Below are positions 3,515-36,602 of a stretch of 46,389 nucleotides of DNA, piece after piece. A model generated the notes under the pieces. It was not told the DNA's origin. It saw nothing but the letters and a program-made list of their open reading frames with translations, and ran no database searches. How positions within the stretch are numbered: position 1 is the stretch's first letter; each line of letters begins with the position of its first letter. Source of the DNA: Mariniphaga sp. (GTDB lineage: Bacteria > Bacteroidota > Bacteroidia > Bacteroidales > Prolixibacteraceae); the NCBI GenBank assembly GCA_025355585.1, contig JANXZJ010000066.1, positions 1-46,389 of the forward strand. The letters run 5' to 3'. Both the position numbers and the translations under genes were made by a program.

Positions 3515-3556
3515 TAAAAAAAAGGCTACCGCGAAGAATTTCCTTGCAGCAGCCCT
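3515..3556 (-). terminator. Terminator of the Spy-like gene
   Basis: On the minus strand, ggctgctgc pairs with gcggtagcc (nine pairs including two G-U), with a 13-nt loop and a following run of eight or nine T. It lies about 40 bases after the stop of the gene at 3593-4075. Confidence 0.75.
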
Positions 3557-3592
3557 TTCCTGTAAACAATAAATCATTTAAATCCTCGGATG

Positions 3593-21936: not shown

Positions 21937-23295
21937 ATGGAAACTCAGCTATTAACTGGCTTGATTGTCATCAATCTATTGGTCACCATTTTCCTGTTAT
22001 TCCAAAGAAATAAGAAAAACCCGGAGCTATCGAATCGCATTGATTCACTGGATAAAAGTCTCCTGAAAATTGAGGCCGGACTTCGGGAAGATTTCAGGAT
22101 CAATCGTGAGGAAAATTCAAATATCGCGAAAGAAAACAGAGCAGAACTGAACGCTACACTTAAAGATTTTCAAAGAGAGCTTGCAGTTACGTTGAAAGAG
22201 ATTACCAACCAATCGAGAAGTGACAGCGTATTACAACGCGATACATTAATCAACTCATTTAAAGGATTTCAGGAGACATTTGATAAAAATGTTGAATCAT
22301 TCAATCAATTGCAGCGCGAAAAGTTTGCCTTTCTTGGTGAGGAACAGAAAAGGATGGTCGACAGTACCGAAAAACGGCTTGAGGAGATCAGGATTACCGT
22401 TGATGAAAAGCTACAGAAAACCCTGAACGAAAGGCTGGGACAATCATTTGAACTCGTTGTAAGACAATTGGAGAATGTACAGAAAGGATTGGGTGAAATG
22501 CAAACCCTCGCACAGGATGTTGGTGGATTGAAACGTGTCCTCAGCAATGTGAAGATGCGCGGCAGCATCGGCGAAGTACAGCTGGCAATGTTGCTCGAAC
22601 AGATTCTGGCACCTGGTCAGTACGAAGCCAATGTAAAAACAAAGGCAGGAAGTTCTGAAGTGGTAGAGTTTGCTATTAAGTTACCTGGTCGCGATGAAAA
22701 CAATTCGGTCGTCTGGCTGCCTGTCGATGCCAAATTCCCCAAAGATATTTATGAGCAACTGCAGGCTGCACACGACACTGGTGATCTGCTGAAAATTGAT
22801 GTTGCCCAGAAACTGCTGGAGCAAACAATCAAAAAAATGGCCAAAGATATCCATGACAAATACATAGATCCTCCAAATACAACTGACTTCGGAATTATGT
22901 TTCTTCCGTTTGAGGGTATCTATGCTGAAGTTGTGCGAAGAGCCTCGCTACTGGACGAATTACAACGAACCTATAAAATTGTGGTTACTGGTCCGACAAC
23001 ACTGGCTGCCATTCTAAACAGTCTCCAAATGGGCTTTAAAACACTTGCTATCCAGCAACGAAGCGGCGAAGTCTGGAAAATTCTTGGAGCGGTCAAAAAA
23101 GAGTTTGAACTATTCGGCGGACTTGTAGAAAAGGCACAAGGCAATATTCAGACAGGTCTTAATCAACTCGATGACGTATTGGGAAAACGAACCCGTGCCA
23201 TTCAGCGCAAACTGAAGAGTGTTGAAGTACTCGAATCAGTAGATAGTAAACTTATCTTGCCAGAATTGAATGAAGACGAACTTACTGAAGATTAA
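21937..23295 (+). CDS. rmuC: DNA recombination protein RmuC
   Basis: This 452-residue protein has an N-terminal membrane anchor (LLTGLIVINLLVTIFLLFQRN), a long coiled coil (about 30-190, with repeated KSLLKIEAGLREDF-like heptads) and the RmuC nuclease-like domain. In that domain MRGSIGEVQLAMLLEQIL, VWLPVDAKFPKDIYEQL, FLPFEGIYAEVVRR and GPTTLAAILNSLQMGF are family blocks. RmuC limits recombination between inverted repeats, and some homologues act in anti-phage defence. It lies just before the Ter island but is separated from it by about 290 bases with a palindrome, so co-transcription is not indicated. Confidence 0.93.
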   Translation: METQLLTGLIVINLLVTIFLLFQRNKKNPELSNRIDSLDKSLLKIEAGLREDFRINREENSNIAKENRAELNATLKDFQRELAVTLKEITNQSRSDSVLQRDTLINSFKGFQETFDKNVESFNQLQREKFAFLGEEQKRMVDSTEKRLEEIRITVDEKLQKTLNERLGQSFELVVRQLENVQKGLGEMQTLAQDVGGLKRVLSNVKMRGSIGEVQLAMLLEQILAPGQYEANVKTKAGSSEVVEFAIKLPGRDENNSVVWLPVDAKFPKDIYEQLQAAHDTGDLLKIDVAQKLLEQTIKKMAKDIHDKYIDPPNTTDFGIMFLPFEGIYAEVVRRASLLDELQRTYKIVVTGPTTLAAILNSLQMGFKTLAIQQRSGEVWKILGAVKKEFELFGGLVEKAQGNIQTGLNQLDDVLGKRTRAIQRKLKSVEVLESVDSKLILPELNEDELTED

Positions 23296-23430
23296 TCCTT
23301 TCAACATTCGCAAATTCTGTCTTTTTTAAAGGAAGATTGCTTTCCTGTTCAACGGCATAACACTCCTTTTCGAGGAATAGATTTGTGATGTTTTTCTTTT
23401 TTATTATTTCTCTAAAAATTTGTAATCCCA

Positions 23431-23464
23431 TTTGTAGAGACGTTGCATGCAACGTCTCTACAAA
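23431..23464. repeat. Perfect 34-bp palindrome of the GTAGAGACG type
   Basis: The left arm tttgtagagacgttgca is the exact reverse complement of the right arm. The family GTAGAGACGnnn...CGTCTCTAC is dispersed in many Bacteroidota genomes. It lies in the 293-base spacer between rmuC and the first terD and could act as an RNA hairpin or as a small mobile palindrome. A second member with a different centre is inside the phosphatase gene at 28468. Confidence 0.95.
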
Positions 23465-23542
23465 ACATTATCTTTTAAATTTATGTTTTGCGGCATCCAA
23501 ATGTTTGCCTTTCGATTTATAAATTCGTATTTTTACCCTTGT

Positions 23543-23550
23543 TAAATTTG
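23543..23550 (+). promoter_or_regulatory. Putative -7 element for the first Ter unit
   Basis: TAAATTTG matches TAnnTTTG, 38 bases before the first terD ATG. The -33 match is weak. Confidence 0.5.
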
Positions 23551-23588
23551 ATTGATAATTTAGCTCAAAAAGCTTTTTAATAGTAAAA

Positions 23589-24272
23589 TTGAATTTTATG
23601 GCAATAAATTTACAAAAAGGTCAAACAATTGATCTTCGAAAAAATGACAAAGGCGACACTTTCGACTTATCGCAGGTAACTGTCGGATTAGGATGGGATA
23701 TCCGCAAGAAAAAAGGTGGATTCCTGAGTGGTTTATTAGGTGGCGACAAAGAAGAGGATTACGATTTGGATGCTATTGCTTTCTTACTCGATGCCAATGG
23801 CAAAGTGGTTAATCTGGGTCGTAAAGCTAAGATGCCCAATGGAAAAGAGATCAACCTTTACGAAGGCGATGTCATCTACTTTAATAGTCAAAGACATCCA
23901 TCAGGTCAGATTTGGTTAACAGGTGACAACCGCACCGGAGCTGGCGAGGGCGACGACGAACAAATTATTGTCAGGCTTGATTCACTTGATCAGAAATATC
24001 AGAAAATCATCTTCCTTGTCACTATCTATCAGGGAAAAACTAAAAATCAACACTTTGGCATGGTAGAAAATGCTTTTATCCGGGCAGTTGATGCCAGGGG
24101 TAAGGAAATTGCCAAATTCAACCTTTCCGGCGATGCGTCGCTAAATGGCGTTTGTGGAATGATCTTTGCCGAGGTGTATCGGCGTGAGGGAACCTGGAAG
24201 TTCAGAGCACTTGGAGAACCACAGGCAACCGATAATTTTGTAGAAATATTGAAGAAGTATATCAACAACTAA
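23589..24272 (+). CDS. TerD-family Ca2+-binding stress protein (1 of 3)
   Basis: This 227-residue protein has the TerD fold. It starts with INLQKGQTIDLRKN, followed by VGLGWDIRK, the acidic DYDLDAIAFLLD strand and the Ca2+-binding loop TGDNRTGAGEGDDEQI. It then has FLVTIYQGKTKNQHFG, the VENAFIRAVDARG strand, and ends with GTWKFRALGEPQ. It is longer than a standard TerD (about 190) because of a Gly-rich insert (KKKGGFLSGLLGGDKEE) and a KAKMPNGKEINLYEG insert. TerD proteins bind Ca2+ and occur in tellurite, phage and stress resistance loci. ATG 23607 is in frame but would cut into the conserved start. It is first in a tight four-gene unit. Confidence 0.9.
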   Translation: MNFMAINLQKGQTIDLRKNDKGDTFDLSQVTVGLGWDIRKKKGGFLSGLLGGDKEEDYDLDAIAFLLDANGKVVNLGRKAKMPNGKEINLYEGDVIYFNSQRHPSGQIWLTGDNRTGAGEGDDEQIIVRLDSLDQKYQKIIFLVTIYQGKTKNQHFGMVENAFIRAVDARGKEIAKFNLSGDASLNGVCGMIFAEVYRREGTWKFRALGEPQATDNFVEILKKYINN

Positions 24273-24285
24273 AAATCAATTAATT

Positions 24286-24837
24286 ATGGCTATTAGTTTA
24301 GAAAAAGGACAAAGAGTAAATGTAACTTTACCCAAATTTACAGTCGGTTTAGGCTGGGATGCCAATTCTGCCAGTGGAGCAGATTTCGATCTCGATGCTT
24401 CGGTTTTCATCCTTGGTGAGAACAAAAAAATTCTGACTGACGAATATTTTGTTTTTTATAACAATCTCAAATCGCCTGATGCAGCTGTAGAACATACAGG
24501 TGACAATCTGACAGGCGAAGGCGAAGGCGATGACGAAAGTGTCAAAGTTGATCTGTCGAAAATCAACGCTGCTGCAACTGAATTGTGTTTTGTGGTTACG
24601 ATCCATGATGCGGCTGCCAGAAAACAAAATTTCGGTCAGGTGCGCAACGCATTTGTAAGAATTTACAACCAGGATACCAACGAAGAAATTCTGAAATACG
24701 ATTTGGATGAAGACTTTTCGATTGAAACGGCTGTTGAATTCGGTCGGCTTTACAAACGTGGCGGCGAATGGAAATTCGAAGCCGTTGGCGTTGGTCTAAA
24801 AGGTGGTCTCGAAGATTATTTAAGCAAATACAATTAA
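24286..24837 (+). CDS. terD: TerD-family protein (2 of 3), canonical length
   Basis: At 183 residues this is the most standard TerD/TerE-type member in the cluster. It has ISLEKGQRVNVTLPKF, VGLGWDANSASGADFDLDAS (Ca2+ site 1 acidic cluster), TGDNLTGEGEGDDESV (Ca2+ loop 2), VVTIHDAAARKQNFGQVRNA and the C-terminal GGEWKFEAVG. All acidic ligands expected from TerD structures are in place. It starts 13 bases after the first terD gene stop. Confidence 0.93.
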   Translation: MAISLEKGQRVNVTLPKFTVGLGWDANSASGADFDLDASVFILGENKKILTDEYFVFYNNLKSPDAAVEHTGDNLTGEGEGDDESVKVDLSKINAAATELCFVVTIHDAAARKQNFGQVRNAFVRIYNQDTNEEILKYDLDEDFSIETAVEFGRLYKRGGEWKFEAVGVGLKGGLEDYLSKYN

Positions 24838-24847
24838 AACTAAAGTA

Positions 24848-25459
24848 ATGGCAATTAAATTAGAAAAAGGTCAAAGGATTAATCTCGAAAAAAGCAACGG
24901 TAGTAAATTAGTAAACATCTGCGTAGGTGTAAACTGGGGAGCCATCGAGAAAAAAGGTTTTTTTGGTGGAAAGAAAATGGAAGCAGTCGATTTGGATGCC
25001 AGTTGCGCGACTTTCGATGATAACAATAATGGTTTGGAAGTGATTTATTTCGGAAACCTCAAATCAAAAAGCGGCTCAATCCGTCACAGTGGTGATGATG
25101 TAGTTGGTGATACAGGTGGTGATGACGGTCTTGATAATGAAGTAATTTCGGTCGATTTGAGTAAACTCGATTCCTCTGTTACTAAAATTGCATTTGTACT
25201 GAACAGCTTTCGCGGACAGGATTTCAAAACGATCCCTTTTGCCTCCATCCGGATTTATGAAGGTACTGCTACGCATGTCAACGAGGTTTTTGCAACCTAC
25301 GATATTGCCAACGGGCCCAACTTTGCCGGTCATGTTTCAATGGTCATGGGTGTTTTCTACAAAAAGAATGGCGAATGGAAATTCAATGCCATTGGCGAAC
25401 CAACTGCAGACAAAGATTTGAAGGGTACATTGAATAGTGTAGTTACCAAGTATTTATAA
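24848..25459 (+). CDS. TerD-family protein (3 of 3), divergent loops
   Basis: This 203-residue paralogue begins IKLEKGQRINLEKSNGSK and has VGVNWGAIEKKGFFGGKK, a VDLDASCATFDDNNNG strand and a Ca2+ loop rewritten as SGDDVVGDTGGDDGLDNE. It ends GEWKFNAIGEP. The Gly-rich insert resembles that of the first TerD. The acidic residues are kept but their spacing differs from the second TerD, so Ca2+ affinity may differ. Three TerD paralogues in a row suggest a hetero-assembly with the vWA protein that follows one base after its stop. Confidence 0.9.
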   Translation: MAIKLEKGQRINLEKSNGSKLVNICVGVNWGAIEKKGFFGGKKMEAVDLDASCATFDDNNNGLEVIYFGNLKSKSGSIRHSGDDVVGDTGGDDGLDNEVISVDLSKLDSSVTKIAFVLNSFRGQDFKTIPFASIRIYEGTATHVNEVFATYDIANGPNFAGHVSMVMGVFYKKNGEWKFNAIGEPTADKDLKGTLNSVVTKYL

Positions 25460-25460
25460 G

Positions 25461-26099
25461 ATGAGAAGATTACCAGTCTATTTAGTTCTGGATACATCCG
25501 GCTCAATGACCGGCGAACCGATTGAAGCTGTTAAGAATGGCGTTCAGGTTCTGGTATCTACCTTACGGCAGGATCCTTATGCTCTCGAAACAGCTTTCTT
25601 AAGTGTGATCACTTTTGATAGTTCTGCACGGCAATTGGTTCAGCTTACCGAACTTTCGATGTTTCAAATGCCCGATATCCAGGCAAACGGAACAACAGCC
25701 TTAGGTGATGCTTTATCTTTGCTGGCCTCAAGATCCGACAACGAAGTCTCCAAGACAACACTCGAACAAAAAGGTGACTGGAAACCTTTGGTCTTCCTGA
25801 TGACTGATGGCGAACCTACGGATAACTGGCAGAAAGGACTGGCAGAATTTAAGAAACGCAAATTCGGTATGGTTGTAGCCTGCGCCGCAGGTTCAGGAGC
25901 CAATACTTCTGTTTTGAAGCAAATTACAGACGTGGTTGTTCAGCTTGATACAGCCGATTCTGCAACAATAAAAGCTTTCTTTAAATGGGTATCAGCTTCT
26001 GTTAGCTCAGGTAGTCAGAAAATCGAAGCAAGTGGCAAAGAGGTCACAGGTCTTAACGAACTGCCTCCTCCCCCACCTGAAGTCAATATTGTTGTCTAA
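25461..26099 (+). CDS. terY: TerY-type vWA-domain protein, intact MIDAS
   Basis: This 212-residue protein is a single von Willebrand factor A domain. The metal site is complete: DTSGS in VLDTSGSM (D11-x-S-x-S), Thr in NGTTALGDAL and Asp in LMTDGEPTD. FFKWVSASVSSGSQ follows, and a proline-rich tail ELPPPPPEVNIVV ends the protein. TerY proteins act with a Ser/Thr kinase and a PP2C phosphatase as the TerY-P triad, and both partners are encoded downstream. It starts one base after terD-3. A strong hairpin follows the gene. Confidence 0.92.
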   Translation: MRRLPVYLVLDTSGSMTGEPIEAVKNGVQVLVSTLRQDPYALETAFLSVITFDSSARQLVQLTELSMFQMPDIQANGTTALGDALSLLASRSDNEVSKTTLEQKGDWKPLVFLMTDGEPTDNWQKGLAEFKKRKFGMVVACAAGSGANTSVLKQITDVVVQLDTADSATIKAFFKWVSASVSSGSQKIEASGKEVTGLNELPPPPPEVNIVV

Positions 26100-26126
26100 T
26101 ATTACAGTACAATTTATTTCTTATAA

Positions 26127-26162
26127 AAAAACGGGTGGTGCAATTAAGCACTGCTCGTTTTT
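26127..26162 (+). terminator. Terminator-like hairpin after terY
   Basis: aaaaacgggtggtgc pairs with gcactgctcgttttt over 15 pairs (three are G-U) around a 6-nt loop and ends in five T. It divides the Ter island into two transcription units, or acts as an attenuator between them. Confidence 0.85.
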
Positions 26163-26195
26163 AACTATAAAGAAGTGAGAAATTTCAAAGCATTC

Positions 26196-26242
26196 GGCAA
26201 CTGACAACTAGTTTCCGGCTGTTGGCAGTAAGTTGCCAGTTG
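26196..26242. repeat. Degenerate caactg/gcaact spacer repeat
   Basis: Imperfect copies of a short word (ggcaactgacaactagttt ... gttggcagtaagttgccagttg) with partly inverted arms. The same style occurs after trpB at about 2001-2028. Such words fill spacers in many Bacteroidota. The rest of the spacer 26163-26315 shows no gene, with a weak TATATTTC at 26286-26293 as a possible promoter for the second unit. Confidence 0.6.
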
Positions 26243-26315
26243 AAAAATCAAAGCTTCTTAAAAGATTCGGAGTCCTTATCAACTTTATATTTCACAGGAT
26301 CTAAAAACAATTCCC

Positions 26316-26684
26316 ATGAGCAATTATGTTGAAAATAATCTTATTTCGGGTGAAACGATTGAATACAAAACGACTTATCATTGGGTAATTTTCCTTACTT
26401 TAAGGGCATTGTTCACGTTGTTTATTGCTCCTTTGATCGACCGGTACACGGATGAATTTACGATCACCAACAAACGGGTAGTTATTAAAATAGGGTTAAT
26501 CAGACGGAAAACTGTTGAATTGAATTTGAACAAAATAGAAAGTGTTAACGTGGATCAGACTGTTATGGGAAGAATCTTTGGGTTCGGTAGTATTTCAATT
26601 ATTGGGATAGGCGGAACGAGAGAAGTTTTTGTCAACATCAGGAAACCACTCGAATTCAGGAAGAAATTCCAGGAATTGTGCTAA
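26316..26684 (+). CDS. Bacterial PH-domain protein (YdbS-like)
   Basis: This 122-residue protein starts with a short soluble part, has one hydrophobic segment (HWVIFLTLRALFTLFIAPLI, about 22-41) and then a bPH2-type domain. The domain reads DEFTITNKRVVIKIGLIRRKTVELNLNKIESVNVDQTVMGRI(F)GFGSISIIG. The ITNxRVxxxxGLxRRKxxELxLxKIESVxVxQ pattern is diagnostic. It probably docks at the inner membrane. It is the first gene of the second Ter unit, 24 bases before the second vWA gene. The role in the Ter system is inferred from position only. Confidence 0.85.
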   Translation: MSNYVENNLISGETIEYKTTYHWVIFLTLRALFTLFIAPLIDRYTDEFTITNKRVVIKIGLIRRKTVELNLNKIESVNVDQTVMGRIFGFGSISIIGIGGTREVFVNIRKPLEFRKKFQELC

Positions 26685-26708
26685 AATAAATATAATAGAA
26701 TCTTACAA

Positions 26709-27344
26709 ATGAGAAGATTACCTGTTTATATACTGATTCAGACTTCCGGTGCGATGCATGGCGAACCAATTGAATCGATTAAAGTTGGTCTGGAATCAAT
26801 GGTTGCCAGTTTGCGCCAGGATCCATTTGCGTTGGAGTCAGTCCATATCAGCCTGATCACTTTTAACCGTATCGCTGAGCAAATTTTACCGCTCACTGAG
26901 TTGGAAAGTTTACAATTGCCGGAGATTATACTTCCTGAATCGGGAGGGACACATCTTGGCGAAGCGCTGAGGTTCCTTTGCGAAAGGGTCGATCAGGAAA
27001 TCCAACTGACCACTGCAGAAATTAAAGGGGACTGGATGCCACTTCTGTTTATCATGACTAACGGAAAGCCATCCGACAATCAACTGTATATGCAGATGAT
27101 TCCGGAAGTAAAACGCCGGCACTTTGGTAGCATTATAGCGTGTGCTGCCGGATCGAAAGCTGATACTGCTAAATTAAAAGAACTTACAGACAACGTTGTA
27201 AGCCTTGATACAACAGATAGCGCCACCTTCCGGCAATTTTTCAAATGGGTCTCCGCATCAGTTAGTATGGGAAACCGGAGCATCGGCGCGACAGCTGAAT
27301 TGCAGCTACCGCCACCGCCACCTGAAGTACATACCGTAATTTAA
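26709..27344 (+). CDS. TerY paralogue with a destroyed MIDAS site
   Basis: This 211-residue vWA-domain protein is a close paralogue of the protein at 25461. Both begin MRRLPVY, share GEPIES/GEPIEA, LRQDP(Y/F)ALE, WVSASVS and the tail LPPPPPEV. The metal site is lost. The first motif is QTSGA instead of DTSGS, so the first Asp is Gln and the second Ser is Ala, and the third motif is MTNGKPSD instead of MTDGEPTD, so Asp is Asn. Only the Thr motif (GGTHLGEAL) is kept. It is probably a folded but metal-independent scaffold or a decoy of TerY. It starts 24 bases after the PH gene and is followed after 5 bases by the AIM24 gene. Confidence 0.9.
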   Translation: MRRLPVYILIQTSGAMHGEPIESIKVGLESMVASLRQDPFALESVHISLITFNRIAEQILPLTELESLQLPEIILPESGGTHLGEALRFLCERVDQEIQLTTAEIKGDWMPLLFIMTNGKPSDNQLYMQMIPEVKRRHFGSIIACAAGSKADTAKLKELTDNVVSLDTTDSATFRQFFKWVSASVSMGNRSIGATAELQLPPPPPEVHTVI

Positions 27345-27349
27345 AAATT

Positions 27350-27985
27350 ATGAACTGTAAATTTATAGGATACGACCTTAAATGTCTTGAAGTCGTTCTT
27401 AACACCGGGGAAGAATTTTTCGCTGAAAGAGGTTCCCTTATTTACCTCGAAAAGGGAATCGAAAGAGAGATGAGAGTGCTTCAAAACGGTGTCTGGGGAA
27501 TGCTCAAAAGGGGCGTTTCAGGCGAAAGCATTATCCTTGTGGTTTATAAAAATACAAGTCGCGATTCAAAAAAGATGGTCGTTGCGGGTAAAGGTGGAAT
27601 GCTCTCTGTCAATCTGACAGAAATGGAGGGCGGAATCCTCTGCAAAAAAGGGTATTACGTAGCTTCAAGCCAACAGGTAGAAGTTGACTTTAAAATTTCT
27701 TTAGGAAGTCTTTTCAGCGGATTAGGATTGGTTTTACAGAAAATCACCGGAAACGGTACTGTTTTTCTCGATTCAATCGGTTCACCAACCAGGATTGATC
27801 TGCAATACGGACAAATCATCCAGGTTGATGAAGGAAGCTTAATCTGCACGAGTCTTAGTCTCGAAGGAAAGATTCAATCCTCCATGTCAGCCTCAAACCT
27901 CTTCTCAGGCGAAGGTTTTTCACTTGTTGAAATTGCGGGTCCCGGAATCGTTTATATCAATTCTGTCAATCTGCGCACGCCCTGA
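27350..27985 (+). CDS. AIM24/TIGR00266-family protein
   Basis: This 211-residue beta-rich protein belongs to the AIM24 family (double-stranded beta-helix, tandem repeats). EVVLNTGEEFFAERGSLIYLEKGI and GVSGESIILVVYKN are the repeat start and strand pattern, then GGMLSVNLTEMEGGILCKKGYYVASSQQVEVDFK, then GNGTVFLDSIG, VDEGSLICTS and GEGFSLVEIAGPGIVYINSVNL. Bacterial members are found in Ter and stress gene clusters, but their biochemical role is not established. The frame begins MNCKFIGYDLK 5 bases after the vWA gene, which implies translational coupling. Confidence 0.87.
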   Translation: MNCKFIGYDLKCLEVVLNTGEEFFAERGSLIYLEKGIEREMRVLQNGVWGMLKRGVSGESIILVVYKNTSRDSKKMVVAGKGGMLSVNLTEMEGGILCKKGYYVASSQQVEVDFKISLGSLFSGLGLVLQKITGNGTVFLDSIGSPTRIDLQYGQIIQVDEGSLICTSLSLEGKIQSSMSASNLFSGEGFSLVEIAGPGIVYINSVNLRTP

Positions 27986-28061
27986 AGTAATCAATAATCA
28001 CCGGTTATAAAATTTGTATTTCAATTAAAGCTTTATTATTCAATAATTAAACTTACACAAA

Positions 28062-28316
28062 ATGAGATTATTACTTTATATCTTCGTGAACGTTCTGATC
28101 GTCGGATTATTTCTGTATTCCAAACTGACTCCTTACAAGGACCGGCTCACCGGTAATTACCTGAAGACATTTAATTTTTTCGACAAGATATTTAATCCAA
28201 TCCTTGCAATTTTTCGACCGATGGCCCGCCCTGCACAGGTGGGAAACGGAATTGCGGTTGATATGTCACAGATTATTCTGTTGGTCATACTTTTGGTTGT
28301 ATTAAAATTTGCATAA
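28062..28316 (+). CDS. Small YggT-like membrane protein
   Basis: This 84-residue protein has two predicted helices (LLLYIFVNVLIVGLFLYSKL, about 3-22, and IILLVILLVVLKFA at the end) with a soluble loop (DRLTGNYLKTFNFFDKIFNPILAIFRPMARPAQVG). FNPILAIFRPMARP...VDMSQIILLVILL resembles the dP-x-l-x-x-R-x-x-x-P...DlSPi pattern of YggT-family proteins, although it is shorter and the match is weak. Its stop TAA overlaps the ATG of the phosphatase gene by one base (TAATG), so the two are translationally coupled. It may anchor or regulate the phosphatase. That is inference. Confidence 0.65.
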   Translation: MRLLLYIFVNVLIVGLFLYSKLTPYKDRLTGNYLKTFNFFDKIFNPILAIFRPMARPAQVGNGIAVDMSQIILLVILLVVLKFA

Positions 28317-29956
28317 TGGATATTACGAAATACTTATCAAATATAGAATTACCGGCGGCTGACGAAATCCAGTTAAAAGCTTTCCTGGCATCAAAAGGAA
28401 TGGAAATGAATGATAACATTCTAAAACTTTGGGATGAATTCATTATAACTGAAAATGCGAATGCCGGTGTAGAGACGCACGGCCGTGCGTCTCTACAGAA
28501 TCCTGCGTCTCTACCCGAATCTCAGCCAGAACCTGCAGATATTGCTCAAAATACAGATCCGATAACCCCAAAGGCACCATTCTTGTCCGTTGAAGAGAAT
28601 GACGGAATAACAGAAGTAAAACCACCAGATACAGAGGCTATGACAATCAATGCAAACATAAATCCAGATAATGCTCCAAAAGAAGATTTAAAGGAAAAGG
28701 TTCAAAACGAGGAACTTGCATTGCTAATCAAAAATAAGTTCATCACCTTGCCAAACGGAAAAGTAGGACAGCCTTACAATTTCGTATTTAGCACTGAAAA
28801 GATTGGGCTCACCGATATTGAAGACTTTTGGTTCACCGGACTTGATCAAATCGGACTTACTTTCGATACGGTAACCGATGCCATCACCGGAACTCCAACA
28901 GTAGCCGGAGAACAATCAATTCAGCTATTTTTGAAACGAAAAGGGTGGACAGAGGGCAAACCGGTTTTCGAACGGAAACTCACCCTTACAGTCAATCCGG
29001 ATCCTCGTTCTCTATGGCAAGACAAGCTCTCAGACAAAAGCGATCCATATTGGAAACCGGATAGTGCGTCTCAATTTCTGAAAGTAGAATCGACCGGACT
29101 ACTCTTAAAAACAGAGCGAAAAGACGTTGTTGCAGCCAGTCGAAGAGGACGTTCACACGCTCATGAAGGAATTTTCAGGGATGATGATTTCGGCATGGAT
29201 TACGATAAAAATACAAACTGGTACATCATCACTGTTGCTGATGGCGCAGGATCCTGCAAAGCATCCAGAAAAGGCTCGCAGATTGCCTGCCAGACAGTTG
29301 TGAATGTATGCAAAACACAACTCGAAAGTCAGCACAAAGATTTTGAACATCTCATCAAGGAATTAAGTAAAGACCGGTCCGATGTAAACCGTAAAAAAAT
29401 GGGCGACGCTCTTTACGGAATTGTAGGAACAGCTGTCTTTAAAGCTTACAAAAACATTGAAGAAGAGGCCACTAAATCAGGAAGAGCAGTAAAAGATTTT
29501 TCAACAACATTGATAGTTTCTATCTGCAAAAAATTCAAATTTGGCTGGTTCGTAGGTGCCTTTTGGGTAGGCGATGGTGGAATCGGGATTTATAATAAGG
29601 ATACTAAATTCTTAAAAGTGCTCGGAGAGTCCGATGGTGGAGAATTCGCCGGGCAAACCCGCTTTCTTACAATGCCCGAAATCACACAACCTGCAGAGCT
29701 TTATCGCCGGTTGAGATTCGATATTGTGGATGAGTTCACGGCTTTGATCTTAATGACGGATGGCATTACCGATCCAAAATTCGAAACCGATGCCAATCTG
29801 CTAAAGATTGAAAAGTGGGATGAATTATGGAAAGACCTTTCGAAAGAAGTTGAATTTAAAGATAATAACGAAAAATCGGCCGAACAACTCCTGAAATGGT
29901 TAGACTTCTGGTCGCCAGGAAATCACGATGACCGAACGATTGCAATTCTATTCTGA
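28316..29956 (+). CDS. PP2C-type phosphatase with an Ig-like domain (TerY-P triad)
   Basis: This 546-residue protein has an N-terminal helical part (1-48) and a low-complexity linker (50-130) carrying the inserted palindrome at residues 51-61. An Ig-like domain follows (about 144-228: LPNGKVGQPYNFVFSTEK ... ITGTPTVAGEQSIQLFLK ... KLTLTVNPDP). A PP2C domain occupies 275-546, with metal and catalytic residues in VADGAGSCKAS (Asp309), FVGAFWVGDGGIG, LILMTDGITDPKF and NHDDRTIAIL. The known VADG-x-G-G form is changed to VADGAGS. It probably dephosphorylates targets of the kinase encoded next. The Ig-like module is of the putative He_PIG type usually seen on exported proteins, but no signal peptide is present here. 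Confidence 0.9.
   Translation: MDITKYLSNIELPAADEIQLKAFLASKGMEMNDNILKLWDEFIITENANAGVETHGRASLQNPASLPESQPEPADIAQNTDPITPKAPFLSVEENDGITEVKPPDTEAMTINANINPDNAPKEDLKEKVQNEELALLIKNKFITLPNGKVGQPYNFVFSTEKIGLTDIEDFWFTGLDQIGLTFDTVTDAITGTPTVAGEQSIQLFLKRKGWTEGKPVFERKLTLTVNPDPRSLWQDKLSDKSDPYWKPDSASQFLKVESTGLLLKTERKDVVAASRRGRSHAHEGIFRDDDFGMDYDKNTNWYIITVADGAGSCKASRKGSQIACQTVVNVCKTQLESQHKDFEHLIKELSKDRSDVNRKKMGDALYGIVGTAVFKAYKNIEEEATKSGRAVKDFSTTLIVSICKKFKFGWFVGAFWVGDGGIGIYNKDTKFLKVLGESDGGEFAGQTRFLTMPEITQPAELYRRLRFDIVDEFTALILMTDGITDPKFETDANLLKIEKWDELWKDLSKEVEFKDNNEKSAEQLLKWLDFWSPGNHDDRTIAILF
28468..28497. repeat. 30-bp palindrome inserted in the phosphatase gene
   Basis: The left arm tgtagagacgcacgg is the exact reverse complement of the right arm. 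A third, partial arm tgcgtctctac follows at 28504-28514. The element lies in codons 51-61 of the phosphatase gene and keeps the frame open, adding VETHGRASLQ. The centre differs from the copy at 23431 (cacggccgtg instead of ttgcatgcaa), but the outer gtagagacg arms are identical. Confidence 0.95.
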
Positions 29957-29958
29957 TT

Positions 29959-31455
29959 ATGGCCAAAACTATTAAAATCAACGCGACCGACGGCGCTCCC
30001 ATCGAATTTGTGGACGAAATGATCGGCTCCGGTGGAATGAAAGATGTCTATTTCAGTCCTGACAAAAGTTATGTCGTAGCCTTTTTCCGCGACAAGCAGG
30101 ATTTTAATGCCAAAGACCGTCTGCAGAATATTACGGGAGTTTACCGCGATCGTATTTTTAACCAGCAAGGTGGTGACTACTGGCAGGATCTCTATTGCTG
30201 GCCTACAAAGATTGTGGAGTACAATGGAAAGTTAGGACTCGTCTGTCCGACCTATCAAAAACACTTCTTTTTTTCGAAAGGATCAGTCAACAACGACTTT
30301 TTAGGGATCAAGGGAAAAGAGAAAGAGGGAAAATGGTTTGCTTCGGCGAAGAACCAAAATAAATTTCTTGCCCCTGAAGAGAAAGGCGACTGGTTTAAAT
30401 ATTTCCAGATCTGCATTCGCATAAGTAGGGCTGTGAAGCGCTTACATGCTGCAGGACTTGCTCATTCCGATCTTTCGTATAAAAATGTATTGGTCGATCC
30501 TGCAACAGGAAGGGCTGCAATTATTGATATAGACGGGTTGGTAGTTCCCGGGAAATATCCGCCCGATGTTTTGGGAACTCCGGATTTTATCGCTCCGGAA
30601 GTAATAGAAACACAGCACCTAAAAATTACAGATCCTGCACGTAAGGTTCCCAGCATTGCAACCGACCGTCACGCACTTGCTGTGATGATTTATATGTACC
30701 TCCTTTACCGTCACCCGCTTAGAGGTGGAAAGGTAAACGACCTCGACTGTGCCAAAGACGAAGAGTACTCGATGGGGTCGAAAGCATTGTTCATCGAGCA
30801 TCCAACGGACAAAAGCAACCAGGTTAAGGTCAACCAATTGAATCCAAGTCAACTGCCACAGGGAGATCCAAATAAAACCCCTTATACAGTTTGTGGTCCC
30901 TATCTTAAAATACTGTTTGACAAAGCATTTATCGAAGGCCTTCATAATCCGTCTGCACGACCAACCGCCAATGAATGGGAAGATGCCCTTTTAAAAACGG
31001 TTGACTTGATGCAACCTTGTCAAAATCAGGCTTGCTGGCACAAGTGGTTTATCTTCGACAATACAAAACAACCCAAATGTCCTTTCTGTGGTACAGTTTA
31101 CAAAGGTCAGTTGCCGGTACTCAATCTCTACTCTTCACGCCGGGCTGGAACCTTTACACCTGACAACTACAGGCTAATGGTTTACAATAACCAATATCTT
31201 TACCAATGGCATGTGAACCGGAATATCTCTCCAAATGAACGACTTACCGAAGAACAAAAAAAACCGGTTGGCTATTTCGTTTTTCACAACAATAAATGGT
31301 TGTTGATCAATCAGCGCCTCAATGATTTGGAAGATAAAAGCGAGGGCAAATTAATTCCAATCAATCAGGCTGTCGAACTAACGGATGGGAAACAAATTCT
31401 CCTTTCAAAGGAAGAAGGTGGCAGATTGATTATCGTTCAGTTAGTTACAGGATAA
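29959..31455 (+). CDS. Ser/Thr kinase with C-terminal Zn ribbon (TerY-P triad)
   Basis: This 498-residue kinase has a Gly-rich loop GSGGMKDVY (23-31), catalytic HSDLSYKN (HRDLxxxN with Asp171 and Asn176), a metal-binding loop DID (190-192 in IIDIDGLV instead of DFG) and GTPDFIAPE (activation segment, APE 212-214). The VAIK lysine is not obvious in VVAFFRDKQ: the expected Lys position is Phe, and Lys46 may take over. After the kinase domain there is a C-x4-C-x14-C-x2-C ribbon (Cys354, 359, 374, 377) and a beta-rich tail. It starts 2 bases after the phosphatase stop and pairs with it and TerY in the triad. Kinase substrate is unknown. Confidence 0.88.
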   Translation: MAKTIKINATDGAPIEFVDEMIGSGGMKDVYFSPDKSYVVAFFRDKQDFNAKDRLQNITGVYRDRIFNQQGGDYWQDLYCWPTKIVEYNGKLGLVCPTYQKHFFFSKGSVNNDFLGIKGKEKEGKWFASAKNQNKFLAPEEKGDWFKYFQICIRISRAVKRLHAAGLAHSDLSYKNVLVDPATGRAAIIDIDGLVVPGKYPPDVLGTPDFIAPEVIETQHLKITDPARKVPSIATDRHALAVMIYMYLLYRHPLRGGKVNDLDCAKDEEYSMGSKALFIEHPTDKSNQVKVNQLNPSQLPQGDPNKTPYTVCGPYLKILFDKAFIEGLHNPSARPTANEWEDALLKTVDLMQPCQNQACWHKWFIFDNTKQPKCPFCGTVYKGQLPVLNLYSSRRAGTFTPDNYRLMVYNNQYLYQWHVNRNISPNERLTEEQKKPVGYFVFHNNKWLLINQRLNDLEDKSEGKLIPINQAVELTDGKQILLSKEEGGRLIIVQLVTG

Positions 31456-31477
31456 ACAAATTTATAAGACAAACAAT

Positions 31478-32173
31478 TTGATTAAGCATATCTCTTTTGA
31501 TCTCTGGCTCACTTTGATAAAATCGCATCCTGAATTTAAGGAGCGACGTGCAAAATTCCTTAGAAAAGAGTTTAATCCATTTGGCTATTCGGCGAAAAAA
31601 ATCATGGAAATAGTTCAGTCTGTTGACAAAGTTAGCGACAGGTTGAATGAAATCAGCGGTAAAAAAGTTGCAACAGAATGCATGTACCGTCGGATTTTAC
31701 TAAAACTCGGATACGATCCGGGTTGTGTCACAGATGATGTGTACACCGAAATCAAAAGAAAAGTCAACGATTTGTTTATGAAATATCCACCGCTATTTTT
31801 GAATGAATCAGTTCAGCCAATGCTACATTCCCTAAAAGAAGAAGGCTACAGCTTAAACATTAGCAGCAATACTGGTTACATAGAAGGGACAATCATAGTT
31901 GCCACCTTAAAAAATTTAAACATCTTTGAATATTTTGAATACTGTATTTTCTCCGATGAAATCGGACATTCGAAACCATCACGAGTTTTTTTCGAAAAAG
32001 TCTTTGATCAAACTGGTTTTGAAAAGGGGGAAGTGCTTCATGTCGGCGATAATTTTAAAGCAGATTATGAAGGTGCACTGAAATTCGGATTTAAAGCATT
32101 TTATATTAATAATCAACAATATACAATTAATGATATTAAAAGACACTTACAAGCGAACAATAGAGAAGTTTAG
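31478..32173 (+). CDS. HAD-superfamily hydrolase, non-canonical motif I
   Basis: This 231-residue HAD protein starts at TTG 31478 (no in-frame ATG before motif I; a stop lies just upstream). Motif I is FDLWLTL, so the nucleophile Asp8 is kept but the +2 Asp used as general acid is Trp10. Motif II is NISSNTGY, the motif III Lys is in HSKPSRVFF, and motif IV is VGDNFKADYEGAL. A helical cap lies between motifs I and II. The lost +2 Asp suggests a slow phosphatase, a phosphotransferase or a binding role. It overlaps the PRTase gene by 44 bases. HAD and PRTase genes often accompany TerD-linked loci thought to make a nucleoside-like metabolite. Confidence 0.85.
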   Translation: MIKHISFDLWLTLIKSHPEFKERRAKFLRKEFNPFGYSAKKIMEIVQSVDKVSDRLNEISGKKVATECMYRRILLKLGYDPGCVTDDVYTEIKRKVNDLFMKYPPLFLNESVQPMLHSLKEEGYSLNISSNTGYIEGTIIVATLKNLNIFEYFEYCIFSDEIGHSKPSRVFFEKVFDQTGFEKGEVLHVGDNFKADYEGALKFGFKAFYINNQQYTINDIKRHLQANNREV

Positions 32174-32972
32174 TGCCTTCCAGGTTTCAGATCCTAAAAA
32201 TTTTGATTTTCCAGCCGAAAAGTATTCGAAATTCAAATTCGGATCGACCAATATAGCCCGCGAATTTGGCTATACCTTGGCAGATCGTTTTATCAATCAA
32301 TTGTTTAAATTCAGCTATTTGGGAAAACCTATCGTTGTATTGCCAAGTGCCTATTCGCATATTCCGACAGCCTCCTACTTTATGACAATTCATTTTATAG
32401 ATAAACTCAATCAGTTCCTTTACGAAAATGAATTTTCACCCGTTGAAACCGGAAAAATCGGCAGAAGCATCACCTATCGTGAAGACTATGGCGAGATGAC
32501 TGCCGAGGAACGTTACAATCTGATCAAAGGAGACAAATTCAACATTGACGAAGCGCTCCTCAAAAACAAAATCTTGATTTTTCTGGACGATATAAAAATA
32601 ACCGGAACACATGAACGGATTATTATCAAGATGTTAGATGATTTTGGCATCCAGAATCATTGCTACATGCTTTATTTCGCCGAATTGACCGATCCGGCAA
32701 TATGCCCCAAAACGGAGAACTATCTGAATCATTTCTTTGTGAAGTCAATTTCTGATCTTTATTCCATTGTTCATCAGGAAGATTTTAAATTTAATACTCG
32801 GATTGTCAAGTATATTCTGAACAGCAATCCTGAAGCTTGCCGTTTGTTTCTTCAAAAACAAAGCAAAGCATTCATCAATGAATTATTTTACAAGGCATTA
32901 GGAAACGAATACTATAAATTCCCCGAGTACACTGCCAATCTGCAGACAATTGAGGCGATGGTATCAGAATAA
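32130..32972 (+). CDS. Phosphoribosyltransferase-like protein of the Ter island
   Basis: This 280-residue protein has the PRPP-binding motif of type I phosphoribosyltransferases at 148-161: two hydrophobic residue runs, Asp153-Asp154 and ITGTHE (canonical VDDxxxTGxT). PIVVLPSAYSHIPTASYFMT (68-87) is the substrate/loop-1 region. The domain is larger than nucleobase PRTases and has a C-terminal extension with no clear similarity. The start at ATG 32130 overlaps the HAD gene by 44 bases; a later start would lose part of the N-terminal helix. It is the last enzyme of the second unit. A small secreted protein follows 9 bases later. Confidence 0.85.
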   Translation: MILKDTYKRTIEKFSAFQVSDPKNFDFPAEKYSKFKFGSTNIAREFGYTLADRFINQLFKFSYLGKPIVVLPSAYSHIPTASYFMTIHFIDKLNQFLYENEFSPVETGKIGRSITYREDYGEMTAEERYNLIKGDKFNIDEALLKNKILIFLDDIKITGTHERIIIKMLDDFGIQNHCYMLYFAELTDPAICPKTENYLNHFFVKSISDLYSIVHQEDFKFNTRIVKYILNSNPEACRLFLQKQSKAFINELFYKALGNEYYKFPEYTANLQTIEAMVSE

Positions 32973-32981
32973 GGATGAATC

Positions 32982-33284
32982 ATGAATAGAGAAAGTAAAA
33001 CATTACTTAGATTTATTATTTTGCTGACAGTTCTCTTCTGCCTTGGTATTGATGCCTATTCAAATTGTAATATCAGGACAACCATCGTAGAGCATCCTGC
33101 TGTGGATAACTTTGGGGAGAACAATTCATCTCCGGATGTCGATTTTTTCGATGAAGAACAAATCAATCAAATTTCTGATTTTTTTTCTGGCGCCGACTTT
33201 ATATTTCAAATTCGTATTCCACAGAATTGCCATTTAATTCCAAGGTTCCCCAGCTTGATTTGGCAACCGCCTAAAGACAAGTAG
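32982..33284 (+). CDS. Small secreted protein of unknown function
   Basis: This 100-residue protein has an N-terminal signal segment (LLRFIILLTVLFCLGIDAYS) with a likely cleavage after SNC or Ala-Tyr-Ser. The mature part is acidic with a DVDFFDEEQINQISDFF core and a single Cys-containing C-terminal part (FQIRIPQNCHLIPRFPS). It is closely linked to the PRTase gene (9-base gap) and is the last gene before a strong terminator, so it belongs to the operon. No known family is recognised. Whether it is a lipoprotein is unclear because the Cys after the hydrophobic part is in SNCN. Confidence 0.65.
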   Translation: MNRESKTLLRFIILLTVLFCLGIDAYSNCNIRTTIVEHPAVDNFGENNSSPDVDFFDEEQINQISDFFSGADFIFQIRIPQNCHLIPRFPSLIWQPPKDK

Positions 33285-33316
33285 TTCAACTTTTAATTAG
33301 TTTATAAATCATTCAT

Positions 33317-33361
33317 GAGCCTAATATTCAGAATTGAGTATCTTTAGGCTCGATTTTTTTT
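33317..33361 (+). terminator. Terminator at the end of the Ter island
   Basis: gagcctaa pairs with ttaggctc (8 perfect pairs) around a 19-nt loop, followed by ga and eight T. It lies 33 bases after the stop of the small secreted protein gene and only 26 bases before the Ca2+-ATPase start, so read-through into the pump is possible. Confidence 0.88.
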
Positions 33362-33387
33362 GCATTTTAAATCAGAAGAATAACTAG

Positions 33388-36270
33388 ATGGAACACAAAA
33401 AACATTACGAAGGACTCACAAATGAGCAAGTAATTGAAAGCCGGAAAAAATATGGTAGTAATCTACTTACTCCACCTAAACGTGAGTCATTGTGGAAGCT
33501 TTTCCTCGAAAAATTTGAAGATCCGATTATCCGGATTCTTTTAATAGCAGCCTTTCTCTCGTTGGGCATTGCCTTTGTCCATAATGAATTTGCCGAAACA
33601 ATCGGTATTTTCTGTGCGATCTTCCTGGCAACTGGCGTCGCATTCTGGTTCGAAATGGATGCCAATAAGAAGTTTGACATTCTGAATCAGGTAAATGACG
33701 ACACCCTTATTAAAGTCGTTAGGAACGGAAATGTAAGCGAAATACCTAAGAAAGATATTGTAGTTGGAGATATTGTTTTACTTGGAACCGGGGAAGAAAT
33801 TCCTGCCGATGGCGAACTTATGGAAGCTATTTCATTGCAAATCGACGAATCTTGCCTGACAGGCGAACCAATCATCGATAAAACAACGAATCCGGATGAA
33901 TTCGATAAAGAATCGACATACGCGTCAAACTGGGCGATGCGTGGCACCAAAGTAATGGATGGCCATGCTGTTATGTCAATAAAATTTGTAGGAGATGCCA
34001 CAGAATATGGCAAAGTAGCAGAGAAGTCTACAGAAATGTCGGGTGAAGAAACGCCGCTGAATAAACAACTTGACGGGTTAGCCAAATTTATTGGCGTAGT
34101 CGGTTTCGGATTAGCTGTACTAACCTTCAGTGCTTTGTTTATAAAGGATCTTTTTCTTGGAAACACACCCTATACCCTTGCACAGCTCGGATCCGTAGGC
34201 ATTGTTATTGTCGCGGCAATGGTCGCTCTCGCGAAAGTCTGGATGCCAATAATTTATGATGGATATGAATTAGTTGGAATCAAAAAAGAACTTCCCAAAA
34301 GTGTCGAAGAAGGTGGATGGTTCAAATGGTTCGGTTTTGGTTTGCTTACATTTATCCTCCTGGCATTGTTAGGTTATGCATTTGGTATCGATCCATTGAA
34401 TAATGCATCGTGGGTAAGTATTGAGGTTGCAGGTAGAATTCTTCAGTACTTTATGGTTGCGGTAACGCTGATTGTTGTTGCTGTCCCTGAAGGATTACCA
34501 ATGAGTGTCACACTAAGTTTGGCATTAAGTATGCGTAAAATGTTACATGCTAATAACCTGGTCCGGAAAATGCATGCCTGTGAAACCATTGGTGCGACAA
34601 CCGTAATCTGTACCGATAAAACAGGAACTTTAACCCAAAACCGGATGCAGGTAGCAAATACCAATTTTTTCGGTTTGAAAAATCAATTAATGGTTAATGA
34701 TGAATTGAGTAATCTTATCAAGGAAGGAATTGCCGTAAACTCAACTGCCTATCTTGATTTTTCGGATAATATCACAATTAAAACTTTAGGAAATCCAACT
34801 GAAGCGGCTTTGTTATTGTGGCTAAACGCGAGCCAAATCAATTATTTGGAATTGCGTGAAGATGCAGTCATTACGGAGCAACTTACCTTTTCGACCGAGC
34901 GGAAATTCATGGCCACGATTGTAGATTCGCCATTGCTCAACAAAAAAGTACTATACGTAAAAGGTGCTCCGGAAATTGTTCTTTCAAAGTGTAATGATGT
35001 TCTATACGAAGGTGAGCATAAACAAGTCGTTGCGGTCAAGGCTGCAATTGAAGAACTCCTGCTTCAATACCAGAACCAGGCCATGCGTACATTGGGATTT
35101 GCCTACGAAATCATTGATGATGAAAAAGCACGATTTGCAAATGGCAATCTTGCAAATACAAACTTAACCTATCTCGGTGTTGTCGCCATTTCGGATCCGG
35201 TTCGTGAAGATGTACCTGAAGCCGTTCAAAAATGTCTGAATGCAGGTATTGATGTAAAAATCGTTACAGGTGACACTCCTGGAACAGCCAGGGAAATTGG
35301 TCGTCAAATCGGGATCTGGAACGAAAGCGATAAATTACACAACATTATTACAGGAACCGAATTCGAAGCGTTGAGTGATGATGAGGCTGCAAACAGGGTG
35401 CAGCACCTGAAAATTATGTGCCGTGCCAGACCTACAGACAAGCAGCGATTGGTTCAATTGCTTCAGAAAACCGGATCGGTTGTAGCTGTTACGGGTGATG
35501 GTACTAATGATGCGCCAGCATTAAACTTTGCCCATGTCGGTTTATCGATGGGATCTGGAACGTCAGTCGCCAAGGAGGCAAGCGATATCACTTTACTCGA
35601 CGACTCCTTTAACAGTATTGCAACAGCAGTGATGTGGGGACGATCTTTGTACCAGAATATTCAGCGGTTTATACTCTTCCAGTTGACCATCAATGTAGCC
35701 GCGTTGGTCATCGTATTATTAGGTTCAATAATAGGGCATCAGTTACCGTTGACTGTTACGCAAATGCTTTGGGTGAATCTGATTATGGATACCTTTGCCG
35801 CCGGAGCCCTCGCTTCACTTCCTCCGAACGAAAAGGTAATGAAAAATAAACCACGCAAGTCAACCGACTTTATCATCACACCCTCAATGCGATCAACAAT
35901 ATTGTTTGTCGGATTTGCCTTTGTGGCGCTATTAATGGGGTTATTGTTCTTTTTTACAAATGAGGCAGGAGAAATTAGCAGATACGATTTGTCCCGCTTT
36001 TTTACCATTTTCGTTTTGCTTCAATTCTGGAATATGTTTAACGCAAAGGCTTTTGCTACCGGCAAATCAGCATTTAGCAATATGGGACAGAGCATCGGAT
36101 TTGTGATAGTTGCAGCGCTAATTCTTGTAGGACAGATTCTTATTGTAGAATTTGGCGGTGAAGTTTTCCGCACGGTTCCGCTCTCTTTAAAGGACTGGGG
36201 GTTAATTGTTGGATCCACATCATTCGTACTTTGGATTGGAGAGGCAGGTAGGTTCTTCAAACGAATCTAA
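33388..36270 (+). CDS. P-type Ca2+-ATPase, PMCA type, with extra TM insertion
   Basis: This 960-residue ion pump has the TGE actuator motif (CLTGEP, 156-161), VPEGLPMSVTLSLALSM on M4, phosphorylation site Asp410 in ICTDKTGTLTQN, KGAPE, and the hinge VTGDGTNDAPALNFAHVG. The M6 region VNLIMDTFAAGALA is of the PMCA/P2B type. It exports Ca2+ from the cytoplasm. About 80 residues (260-345) between M3 and M4 are unusual and carry two extra hydrophobic segments (LGSVGIVIVAAMVALAKVWMP and WFGFGLLTFILLALLGYAFG), making the protein longer than typical bacterial members. Its position after three TerD genes is notable because TerD binds Ca2+. Start at ATG 33388, separate from the Ter unit by a terminator. 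Confidence 0.93.
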   Translation: MEHKKHYEGLTNEQVIESRKKYGSNLLTPPKRESLWKLFLEKFEDPIIRILLIAAFLSLGIAFVHNEFAETIGIFCAIFLATGVAFWFEMDANKKFDILNQVNDDTLIKVVRNGNVSEIPKKDIVVGDIVLLGTGEEIPADGELMEAISLQIDESCLTGEPIIDKTTNPDEFDKESTYASNWAMRGTKVMDGHAVMSIKFVGDATEYGKVAEKSTEMSGEETPLNKQLDGLAKFIGVVGFGLAVLTFSALFIKDLFLGNTPYTLAQLGSVGIVIVAAMVALAKVWMPIIYDGYELVGIKKELPKSVEEGGWFKWFGFGLLTFILLALLGYAFGIDPLNNASWVSIEVAGRILQYFMVAVTLIVVAVPEGLPMSVTLSLALSMRKMLHANNLVRKMHACETIGATTVICTDKTGTLTQNRMQVANTNFFGLKNQLMVNDELSNLIKEGIAVNSTAYLDFSDNITIKTLGNPTEAALLLWLNASQINYLELREDAVITEQLTFSTERKFMATIVDSPLLNKKVLYVKGAPEIVLSKCNDVLYEGEHKQVVAVKAAIEELLLQYQNQAMRTLGFAYEIIDDEKARFANGNLANTNLTYLGVVAISDPVREDVPEAVQKCLNAGIDVKIVTGDTPGTAREIGRQIGIWNESDKLHNIITGTEFEALSDDEAANRVQHLKIMCRARPTDKQRLVQLLQKTGSVVAVTGDGTNDAPALNFAHVGLSMGSGTSVAKEASDITLLDDSFNSIATAVMWGRSLYQNIQRFILFQLTINVAALVIVLLGSIIGHQLPLTVTQMLWVNLIMDTFAAGALASLPPNEKVMKNKPRKSTDFIITPSMRSTILFVGFAFVALLMGLLFFFTNEAGEISRYDLSRFFTIFVLLQFWNMFNAKAFATGKSAFSNMGQSIGFVIVAALILVGQILIVEFGGEVFRTVPLSLKDWGLIVGSTSFVLWIGEAGRFFKRI

Positions 36271-36290
36271 AAACAATAAAAAATATCATT

Positions 36291-36322
36291 AAAAACAGGG
36301 GAAATTATTTCCCTGTTTTTTT
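36291..36322 (+). terminator. Terminator of the Ca2+-ATPase gene
   Basis: aaaaacaggg pairs with ccctgttttt (10 pairs) around a 10-nt loop rich in A and T, followed by more T. It starts 20 bases after the stop. Confidence 0.9.
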
Positions 36323-36602
36323 GAGTAATACTTTCATCAAAAAATTTCATGATTGATCACTACCCGCATGCAACTATTTTTCCTCCTTTTCAATAATATG
36401 TAATATTTATTGCCTGTTCAAGAGTGAAGTTTTCTTTTAGTGCTGCGCTATCAAATGGCACTGCAACAAAGACGAAGTGAAGTTAAAGTATGTTAATCAA
36501 GTGAAACTAATGGGTGCTTTTAAACGTCTAATCGATACTTTTGCATGAAAATGGTACGCAAATTGTAGCATTTATAGATAATAATTTTAAAAAAATTGAG
36601 TT
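36323..36602. other. Intergenic region before htrA with a -7 element
   Basis: No gene is seen. TACTTTTG at 36536-36543 matches TAnnTTTG and is the likely htrA promoter, with a leader of about 55 bases. An AT-rich stretch follows up to the ATG at 36603. Confidence 0.5.

Follow-up and report, generated by a model that had tools for sequence, protein, structure and literature searches.

We analyzed a 46,389-nucleotide stretch of DNA from Mariniphaga sp. (the window), which is the whole of contig C81 of an incomplete genome (G000; 84.3% complete, 197 contigs), and focused on a Ter gene cluster at positions 23589-36270 that ends with a gene for a Ca2+ pump. An initial annotation had placed the listed genes of this segment on one strand and had interpreted their products as a Ca2+-responsive phospho-signalling complex that controls a nucleotide-like molecule. 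Using the list of open reading frames (ORFs) and family searches, all of these genes were recovered on the + strand, to which the feature coordinates below refer. Except where stated otherwise, family calls are Pfam matches above the curated cut-off; flanking genes were named by Pfam only. The Ter system comprises three TerD proteins, a TerY-like vWA protein, a PP2C phosphatase, a zinc-ribbon kinase, a haloacid dehalogenase-type (HAD) hydrolase and a phosphoribosyltransferase (PRTase), followed by a PMCA-type Ca2+-ATPase. Matches above the cut-off were obtained for TerD (three), VWA (two), bPH_2, AIM24, PP2C_2, Pkinase, HAD_2/Hydrolase, PRTase_3 and the P-type ATPase domains.

The three TerD genes were the only ones detected in the whole genome. 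TerD1 (23598..24272; 188.5 bits) encodes 224 amino acids (aa) from an ATG that, judged by eye, is more likely the start than the TTG at 23589. TerD2 (24286..24837; 183 aa; 252.3 bits; PDB relatives 2kxt and 3ibz) conserves the acidic motifs, which have a role with Ca2+, and is followed by TerD3 (24848..25459; 203 aa; 131.3 bits). Next are the TerY-like vWA protein (25461..26099), whose metal-ion-dependent adhesion site (MIDAS) is intact, a bPH_2 protein (26316..26684; 62.3 bits), a second, MIDAS-dead vWA protein or twin (26709..27344; QTSGAM and MTNG), an AIM24 family protein (27350..27985; 129 bits) and a YggT-like small membrane protein (28062..28316), whose YGGT score of 22.6 bits is under the cut-off of 27. 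The PP2C phosphatase (28316..29956; PP2C_2, 132.1 bits) has intact motifs and an N-terminal extension, and the Ser/Thr kinase (29959..31455; Pkinase, 40 bits; HSDLSYKN and DIDG) carries a C-terminal four-Cys, zinc-ribbon-like motif. The gene for the HAD hydrolase (31478..32173; signature DxWxT) is overlapped by that for the PRTase_3 protein (32130..32972; PF15610, 246.8 bits), in which alignment revealed an intact phosphoribosyl pyrophosphate (PRPP) motif. The TerY-kinase-PP2C triad, its motifs intact, is present together with HAD and PRTase, as initially annotated.

Between the PRTase gene and the pump gene are a 100-aa ORF (32982..33284) and a terminator-like hairpin (33317-33351) followed by eight T (whole element 33317..33361; -15.7 kcal/mol, z -3.7). 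A putative box, TATCTTTA, was read by eye at 33339..33346, approximately 42 bases 5' of the pump start. The pump (33388..36270) was identified as a PMCA-type Ca2+-transporting P-type ATPase by TIGR01517 (671.8 versus a cut-off of 507.05), in agreement with the initial annotation, and its phosphorylation and ion-site motifs (PEGLP, DKTGT, NLIMD) are intact. A further terminator-like hairpin is located 3' of the pump (36298..36314). Given that the first hairpin separates the 100-aa ORF from the pump, the cluster and the pump are probably not one transcript.

We next examined the two catalytic proteins encoded beside the pump. The DxWxT signature of the HAD hydrolase was invariant in all 12 aligned sequences, bacterial and viral alike. 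The second signature position is usually a general acid; because Trp occupies it here, the reaction of this hydrolase is uncertain. The model of the PRTase (predicted local distance difference test score, pLDDT, 88.4) resembled type I PRTases such as PyrR, HGPRT and ComF, with a best E of 5.8e-6 and a template modelling (TM) score by query of 0.35. A PDB sequence search with the PRTase profile returned nothing meaningful. The overlapping genes and the intact PRPP motif are consistent with a pair that would make a nucleotide-like product. The HAD-PRTase pair also occurs alone on plasmid pRL10 of Rhizobium johnstonii (L151), near the plasmid partition gene repA, and 16 of 17 plasmid matches were from Rhizobium or Sinorhizobium.

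The distribution of the PRTase was evaluated at several scales. An order-wide search detected PRTase_3 in 6 of 393 genomes, four of them above the cut-off (the window genome, G133, G768 and G917), and a draw of 198 genomes of the order yielded three, two above the cut-off. Scanning genome contigs yielded seven loci: six from the window's genus (g1, 18 genomes) and one new, L014, from an uncultured Bacteroidales (genome G726). Among the 140 genomes of the family that were searched, PRTase_3 was confined to g1, where 7 of 18 genomes had it. Matches under the cut-off (G167, G817, G404, G443 and G514) were left out of the counts; the surroundings of the G167 match contained no match to window genes.

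In 10 of the 11 Bacteroidales genomes with PRTase_3 above the cut-off, a Ca2+-ATPase gene immediately follows the HAD-PRTase pair on the same strand, at a gap of 8-415 bases. The gaps are 28 bases in L014, 8 in G768, 215 in G917 and 40-415 in the seven g1 genomes. Conservation of the neighborhood in three Bacteroidales genomes outside the genus supports the proposed link to the pump. In G768 and G917, TerD is encoded on contigs other than that of HAD-PRTase-pump, so the conserved link is that of HAD-PRTase with the pump and not of the pump with TerD or the kinase. TerD was detected in G726, G768, G917 and G133, and in 0 of 10 g1 genomes without Ter. Such pumps are not everywhere: the L014 pump was matched by 46 of 198 order genomes at an E of 1e-100, some of them distantly. 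The initially proposed membrane pair of a PH and a YggT-like protein fared unevenly, as the YggT-like protein recurs in L014, G917, G355, G656 and G504, whereas the bPH_2 protein is not a conserved part, with no BLAST match in G290, L014 or the clusters outside the genus.

Phylogenies of the two parts disagreed. In the pump tree (49 rows), L014 and G768 formed a group (100/99) distant from g1, whose sister was G917. In the PRTase tree (30 rows), the Bacteroidales PRTases formed one clade (100/98) with L014 among g1 (99/99). Approximately unbiased (AU) tests rejected a grouping of L014 with G768 for the PRTase (p 1.5e-4) and the HAD (p 1.6e-3; 18 rows each), and a grouping of L014 with the g1 Ter pumps (p 7e-8; 26 rows). 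Two pump lineages are thus linked to HAD-PRTase, and the pump trees conflict with the HAD-PRTase trees. Mapping the linked state on the midpoint-rooted pump tree at equal costs required five changes, read as two gains and three losses. In L014, a nucleoside phosphorylase (PNP_UDP_1) is encoded directly 3' of the pump (L014:13657-14541), and the cluster also includes a PrsW-like protein.

The metal-dead vWA twin noted in the initial annotation was seen only in the pump-type form. The MIDAS residues D,S,S...D have become Q,S,A...N in the window copy, with the threonine retained. Among 15 short twin copies, all eight from pump-type clusters had lost D and S (replaced by Q and A) and all seven from other systems were intact; five g1 copies had lost the last MIDAS D as well (N). 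This twin count leaves out a third, degenerate vWA protein in L014, and the G280 and G289 contigs end before the gene. The MIDAS was intact in 15 TerY and eight long TerY copies. The dead copies form one clade (100/98), which places the MIDAS loss as a single event on this tree; as one event, it makes the match between twin and pump no independent evidence. The dN/dS ratios (nonsynonymous to synonymous rates) of the twin versus G274, G275, G277 and G290 were 0.014, 0.017, 0.011 and 0.023, with synonymous sites near saturation in the latter two comparisons, and those of TerY were 0.011, 0.018, 0.016 and 0.015. The twin is therefore about as constrained as TerY and is not a decaying relic. A 9.4-kb contig of G768 (L152, G768:C344) encodes three TerD proteins, TerY and the dead twin without a kinase or PP2C, and the vWA pair can thus stand without an adjacent kinase.

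We then investigated which clusters contain TerC and TelA. A phylum search matched 18 of 395 genomes, 15 of them above the cut-off including the window genome; the remaining 14 belong to the same class but to other orders. Each of these 14 clusters encodes TelA, TerC and a 320-aa partner within its fetched stretch, and the pump, searched for in these stretches only, had no match. G133 has TelA and the partner, and a TerC-like DUF475 protein is encoded on a Hymenobacter plasmid. The g1 clusters, L014 and the G768 and G917 contigs that carry Ter genes, some of them cut or short, yielded none of the three proteins, and no TerC, TelA or TerB was found among the window cluster proteins.

TerC was also encoded near the pair in viruses. 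All four viral contigs with HAD-PRTase (L157-L160) contained TerC, above the Pfam cut-off, within 3 kb, and in L157 the 3' end of the PRTase gene is overlapped by the gene for TerC, which there occupies the position that the pump has in Bacteroidales. The PRTase was found in 154 phage records. All four Stephanstirmvirinae records examined among them had a gene annotated as TerC, Alx or DUF475 at most 10 kb from the pair; we take Alx and DUF475 to be TerC-like, in line with a weak DUF475 match. Within that distance, KP13-16 has TerD-like, TelA and Alx genes, phi1_175008 TerD-like and Alx genes, phiWec179 a TerC gene and 05F01 a DUF475 gene. No TerC-type annotation was present within 4-5 kb in Rhizobium phage RHph_I1_18 or Xanthomonas phage XaC1. 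Viral contigs with Ca2+ pumps (L155, L156) gave no adjoining match to the window, L014, TelA or TerC queries.

The Ter gene kit itself is already known, and Anantharaman et al. (2012) reportedly described a Ter system with a signal-making HAD and PRTase. The available part of PMC7824862 describes PRTase/HAD signal makers, TerD/TerB sensors, a TerC membrane responder and a sub-membrane structure of TelA/TerF vWA proteins, used against phages and xenobiotics. The window shares with that system three TerD proteins, HAD, PRTase and vWA proteins on one strand. Unlike it, as far as that part of the source goes, the window cluster is without TerC, TelA and TerB, has a Ca2+-ATPase 3' of the PRTase and has a TerY-like protein without TerY_C. 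The viral TerD-HAD-PRTase-TerC modules (L157-L160) are similar in the HAD-PRTase pair and TerD but have TerC instead of the pump, and neither the kinase nor PP2C had a BLAST match in their stretches.

The metal-binding TerY_C domain (PF15616) is a defining feature of TerY-P; no match to it was found in the window vWA proteins, and it is present in the long TerY of G917. The vWA, PP2C and kinase proteins of the TerY-P triad, as presented in the accessible portion of PMC11090510, are all encoded here with active-site motifs and four cysteines, the intact vWA and PP2C genes being separated by four small genes. The cluster differs in having two short vWA proteins, one of them MIDAS-dead, and no CoCoNuT genes were among the neighbors seen. 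Type III-A CoCoNuTs in the same portion likewise pair an intact vWA protein with a second one whose MIDAS is damaged, but the middle threonine is lacking there, whereas in the pump-type twin it is retained and the substitutions affect D, S and, in g1, the last D. The nearest precedent for the pump is in Jug phages of Bacteroides/Phocaeicola (PMC12363816, a preprint), which have TerD and a Ca2+-ATPase in the same genomes and a small protein gene before the pump; in the part of that source available, TerD and pump are not adjacent and no HAD or PRTase is named. Among the literature matches listed, with many subscription papers outside scope, none connects a P-type Ca2+-ATPase with HAD-PRTase or with a bacterial Ter cluster, and the pump link is new within this literature.

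Whether the cluster represents a distinct Bacteroidales form of Ter, in which a Ca2+ pump stands in the place of TerC, is in our estimation an even call, with its function predicted from gene content. In such a form, HAD and PRTase would make a nucleoside- or nucleotide-like signal, and the TerD proteins would bind the signal and/or Ca2+. The kinase and PP2C would set a phosphorylation state for which the TerY vWA protein would serve as the reader, with the dead twin possibly a fixed, metal-independent scaffold partner. The membrane output would be ion export, carried out in the common form by TerC and in this form by the Ca2+ pump, which would have replaced TerC by function and not by descent. 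Such a replacement would point to Ca2+ (or Mn2+) as the ion handled. In the part of PMC4608589 available, TerC and Ca2+/H+ antiporters (CaCA2) belong to one superfamily, these antiporters giving TerC its best superfamily score. Mn2+ is a candidate because a Mn2+/Ca2+ ATPase of Streptococcus is named by a reference title in the accessible part of PMC10550928. More tentatively, Ter systems at large could be ion-export switches under a nucleotide signal made by HAD/PRTase; displacement of TerC by a Ca2+ pump in Bacteroidales, without common descent and with one vWA protein turned into a metal-independent scaffold, would then expose Ca2+ (or Mn2+) as the ion of TerC-type Ter in bacteria and phages. 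The complex initially proposed is compatible with these findings; that interpretation as a whole is partly supported, and the observation itself is confirmed.

Several results weigh against a distinct pump-bearing form. The pump is present in all 18 g1 genomes, 11 of which are without the Ter cluster, and in all 11 of these HtrA is 3' of the pump, beside it. The arrangement VTT-RmuC-pump-HtrA, with no Ter gene between, was found at seven Ter-less loci of six genomes (G284 twice, G276, G285, G286, G287 and G288); G281 is without RmuC there, and the G282 contig ends at the pump. A 1,292-aa AMP-binding gene, by eye resembling a nonribosomal peptide synthetase (NRPS), occupies the RmuC-pump gap in G278 and G283 (L088, L089). 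A box TAnnTTTR, read by eye approximately 40-50 bases before the pump, is present in 9 of 11 Ter-less and 4 of 7 Ter-bearing rows; together with the hairpin between PRTase and pump, it makes it doubtful that the pump is an ordinary operon member in the window genome. Thus, in g1 the pump is the gene that stays with or without Ter, and because of its presence in all 18 genomes, the HtrA neighbor in the 11 and the hairpin, adjacency in g1 proves nothing. Outside g1, G133 carries Ter genes together with HAD and PRTase, and its pump is 48 kb distant. TerC was not lost from the cell, as 16 of 18 g1 genomes, including that of the window (one, G000:C150), carry it elsewhere. Some stretches are short or cut: the pump contigs of G768 and G917 measure 3.4 and 8.5 kb and the contigs with their Ter genes 4.6-9.4 kb, and the G280 and G289 clusters are without their 5' half. 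Finally, dead twin, missing TelA/TerC and pump link coincide and may be one event, and the pump link itself may reflect one gain and many losses, the ancestral linked state being cheaper if a gain is costed at three or more losses.

Of the alternatives, an anti-phage role is possible, though we hold it with limited confidence, and it is compatible with a pump-bearing Ter form. The TerY-P triad would act with a HAD-PRTase alarm signal, and a housekeeping pump would restore Ca2+ after membrane damage. Gao (2020) is said to connect Ter/TerY-P with phage conflict. The available parts of PMC7824862 and PMC11090510 make the same connection, and both the patchy presence in g1 (7 of 18) and the viral TerD-HAD-PRTase-TerC modules are consistent with it. 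PADLOC recognized no anti-phage system among ten cluster proteins: TerD, the vWA proteins and HAD had no match, and the remaining proteins scored low, the kinase highest at 29 bits.

An insertion accident, in which a mobile Ter island landed beside a resident, unrelated pump, is on balance unlikely. It would account for the Ter-less loci, the box and hairpin, and the unrelated gene in the RmuC-pump gap. However, PRTase-pump adjacency recurs in L014, G768 and G917, in other surroundings and with two pump lineages. Moreover, the Ter-less genomes nest among the Ter-bearing ones with G917 as the outgroup, some branches being weak, so an apparently empty site is at least as likely to reflect deletion as late insertion. 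Indeed, G279 retains between pump and VTT a lone intact TerD3 (L078, 7770-8390), with the rest of the cluster missing; it is 90% identical to the window copy (dN 0.06, dS 1.16) and still constrained. Least probable is shared descent, by which an old HAD-PRTase-pump operon spread, was mostly lost and had one part swapped by homologous recombination with no selection needed: the single PRTase clade, the position of the G917 pump beside those of g1 and the cheaper ancestral linkage under costly gains favor it, but it is opposed by the five changes at equal cost and the conflicting histories of the L014 parts, and an operon that persisted despite such swaps would in any case function as a unit.

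It has long been asked what function Ter genes serve beyond tellurite resistance. A natural exchange of TerC for a transporter from a family with a known ion would make this question directly accessible, because it predicts the ion that should be measured and the pair of proteins (HAD, PRTase) that should be removed. The pump-type variant forms a small, well-delimited gene set, for which Ter-less members of the same genus serve as controls.

Among the seven Ter-bearing g1 genomes, HtrA is 3' of the pump in four (G000, G275, G280 and G290), HtrA is on another contig in G274 and G289, and the G277 contig ends inside the pump gene. Most genomes looked at had one close pump copy; G284 had two and G277 split pieces. 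In L044/L045 (G289:C365), a rearrangement places the Ter cluster and pump beside homologues of window positions 787-4075, the far 5' end. Rfam scans of the window and six linked loci gave no match at the gathering score, and none in window 23000-37000 at an E of 1, which speaks against a yybP-ykoY-type riboswitch as a control of the pump. A Bacteroidota promoter pattern gave 4 matches versus a chance mean of 2.58. A perfect 34-base palindrome lies between RmuC and TerD1 (23431-23464; 15-bp stem, -22 kcal/mol, z -9.6), and of 160 fetched loci, four contained its 30-base core, each of them an excerpt of the window. The 100-aa ORF 3' of the PRTase gene, which had no family match, has by eye a hydrophobic N-terminus and ends in IWQPPKDK. 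It has a homologue in G274 and a resembling ORF in G917 (26% identity). IWQPPK plus a few residues ends small ORFs (window 32982-33284; L146:2638-2943) in the PRTase-pump gap of the window and G274, and two genes before HAD in G917.

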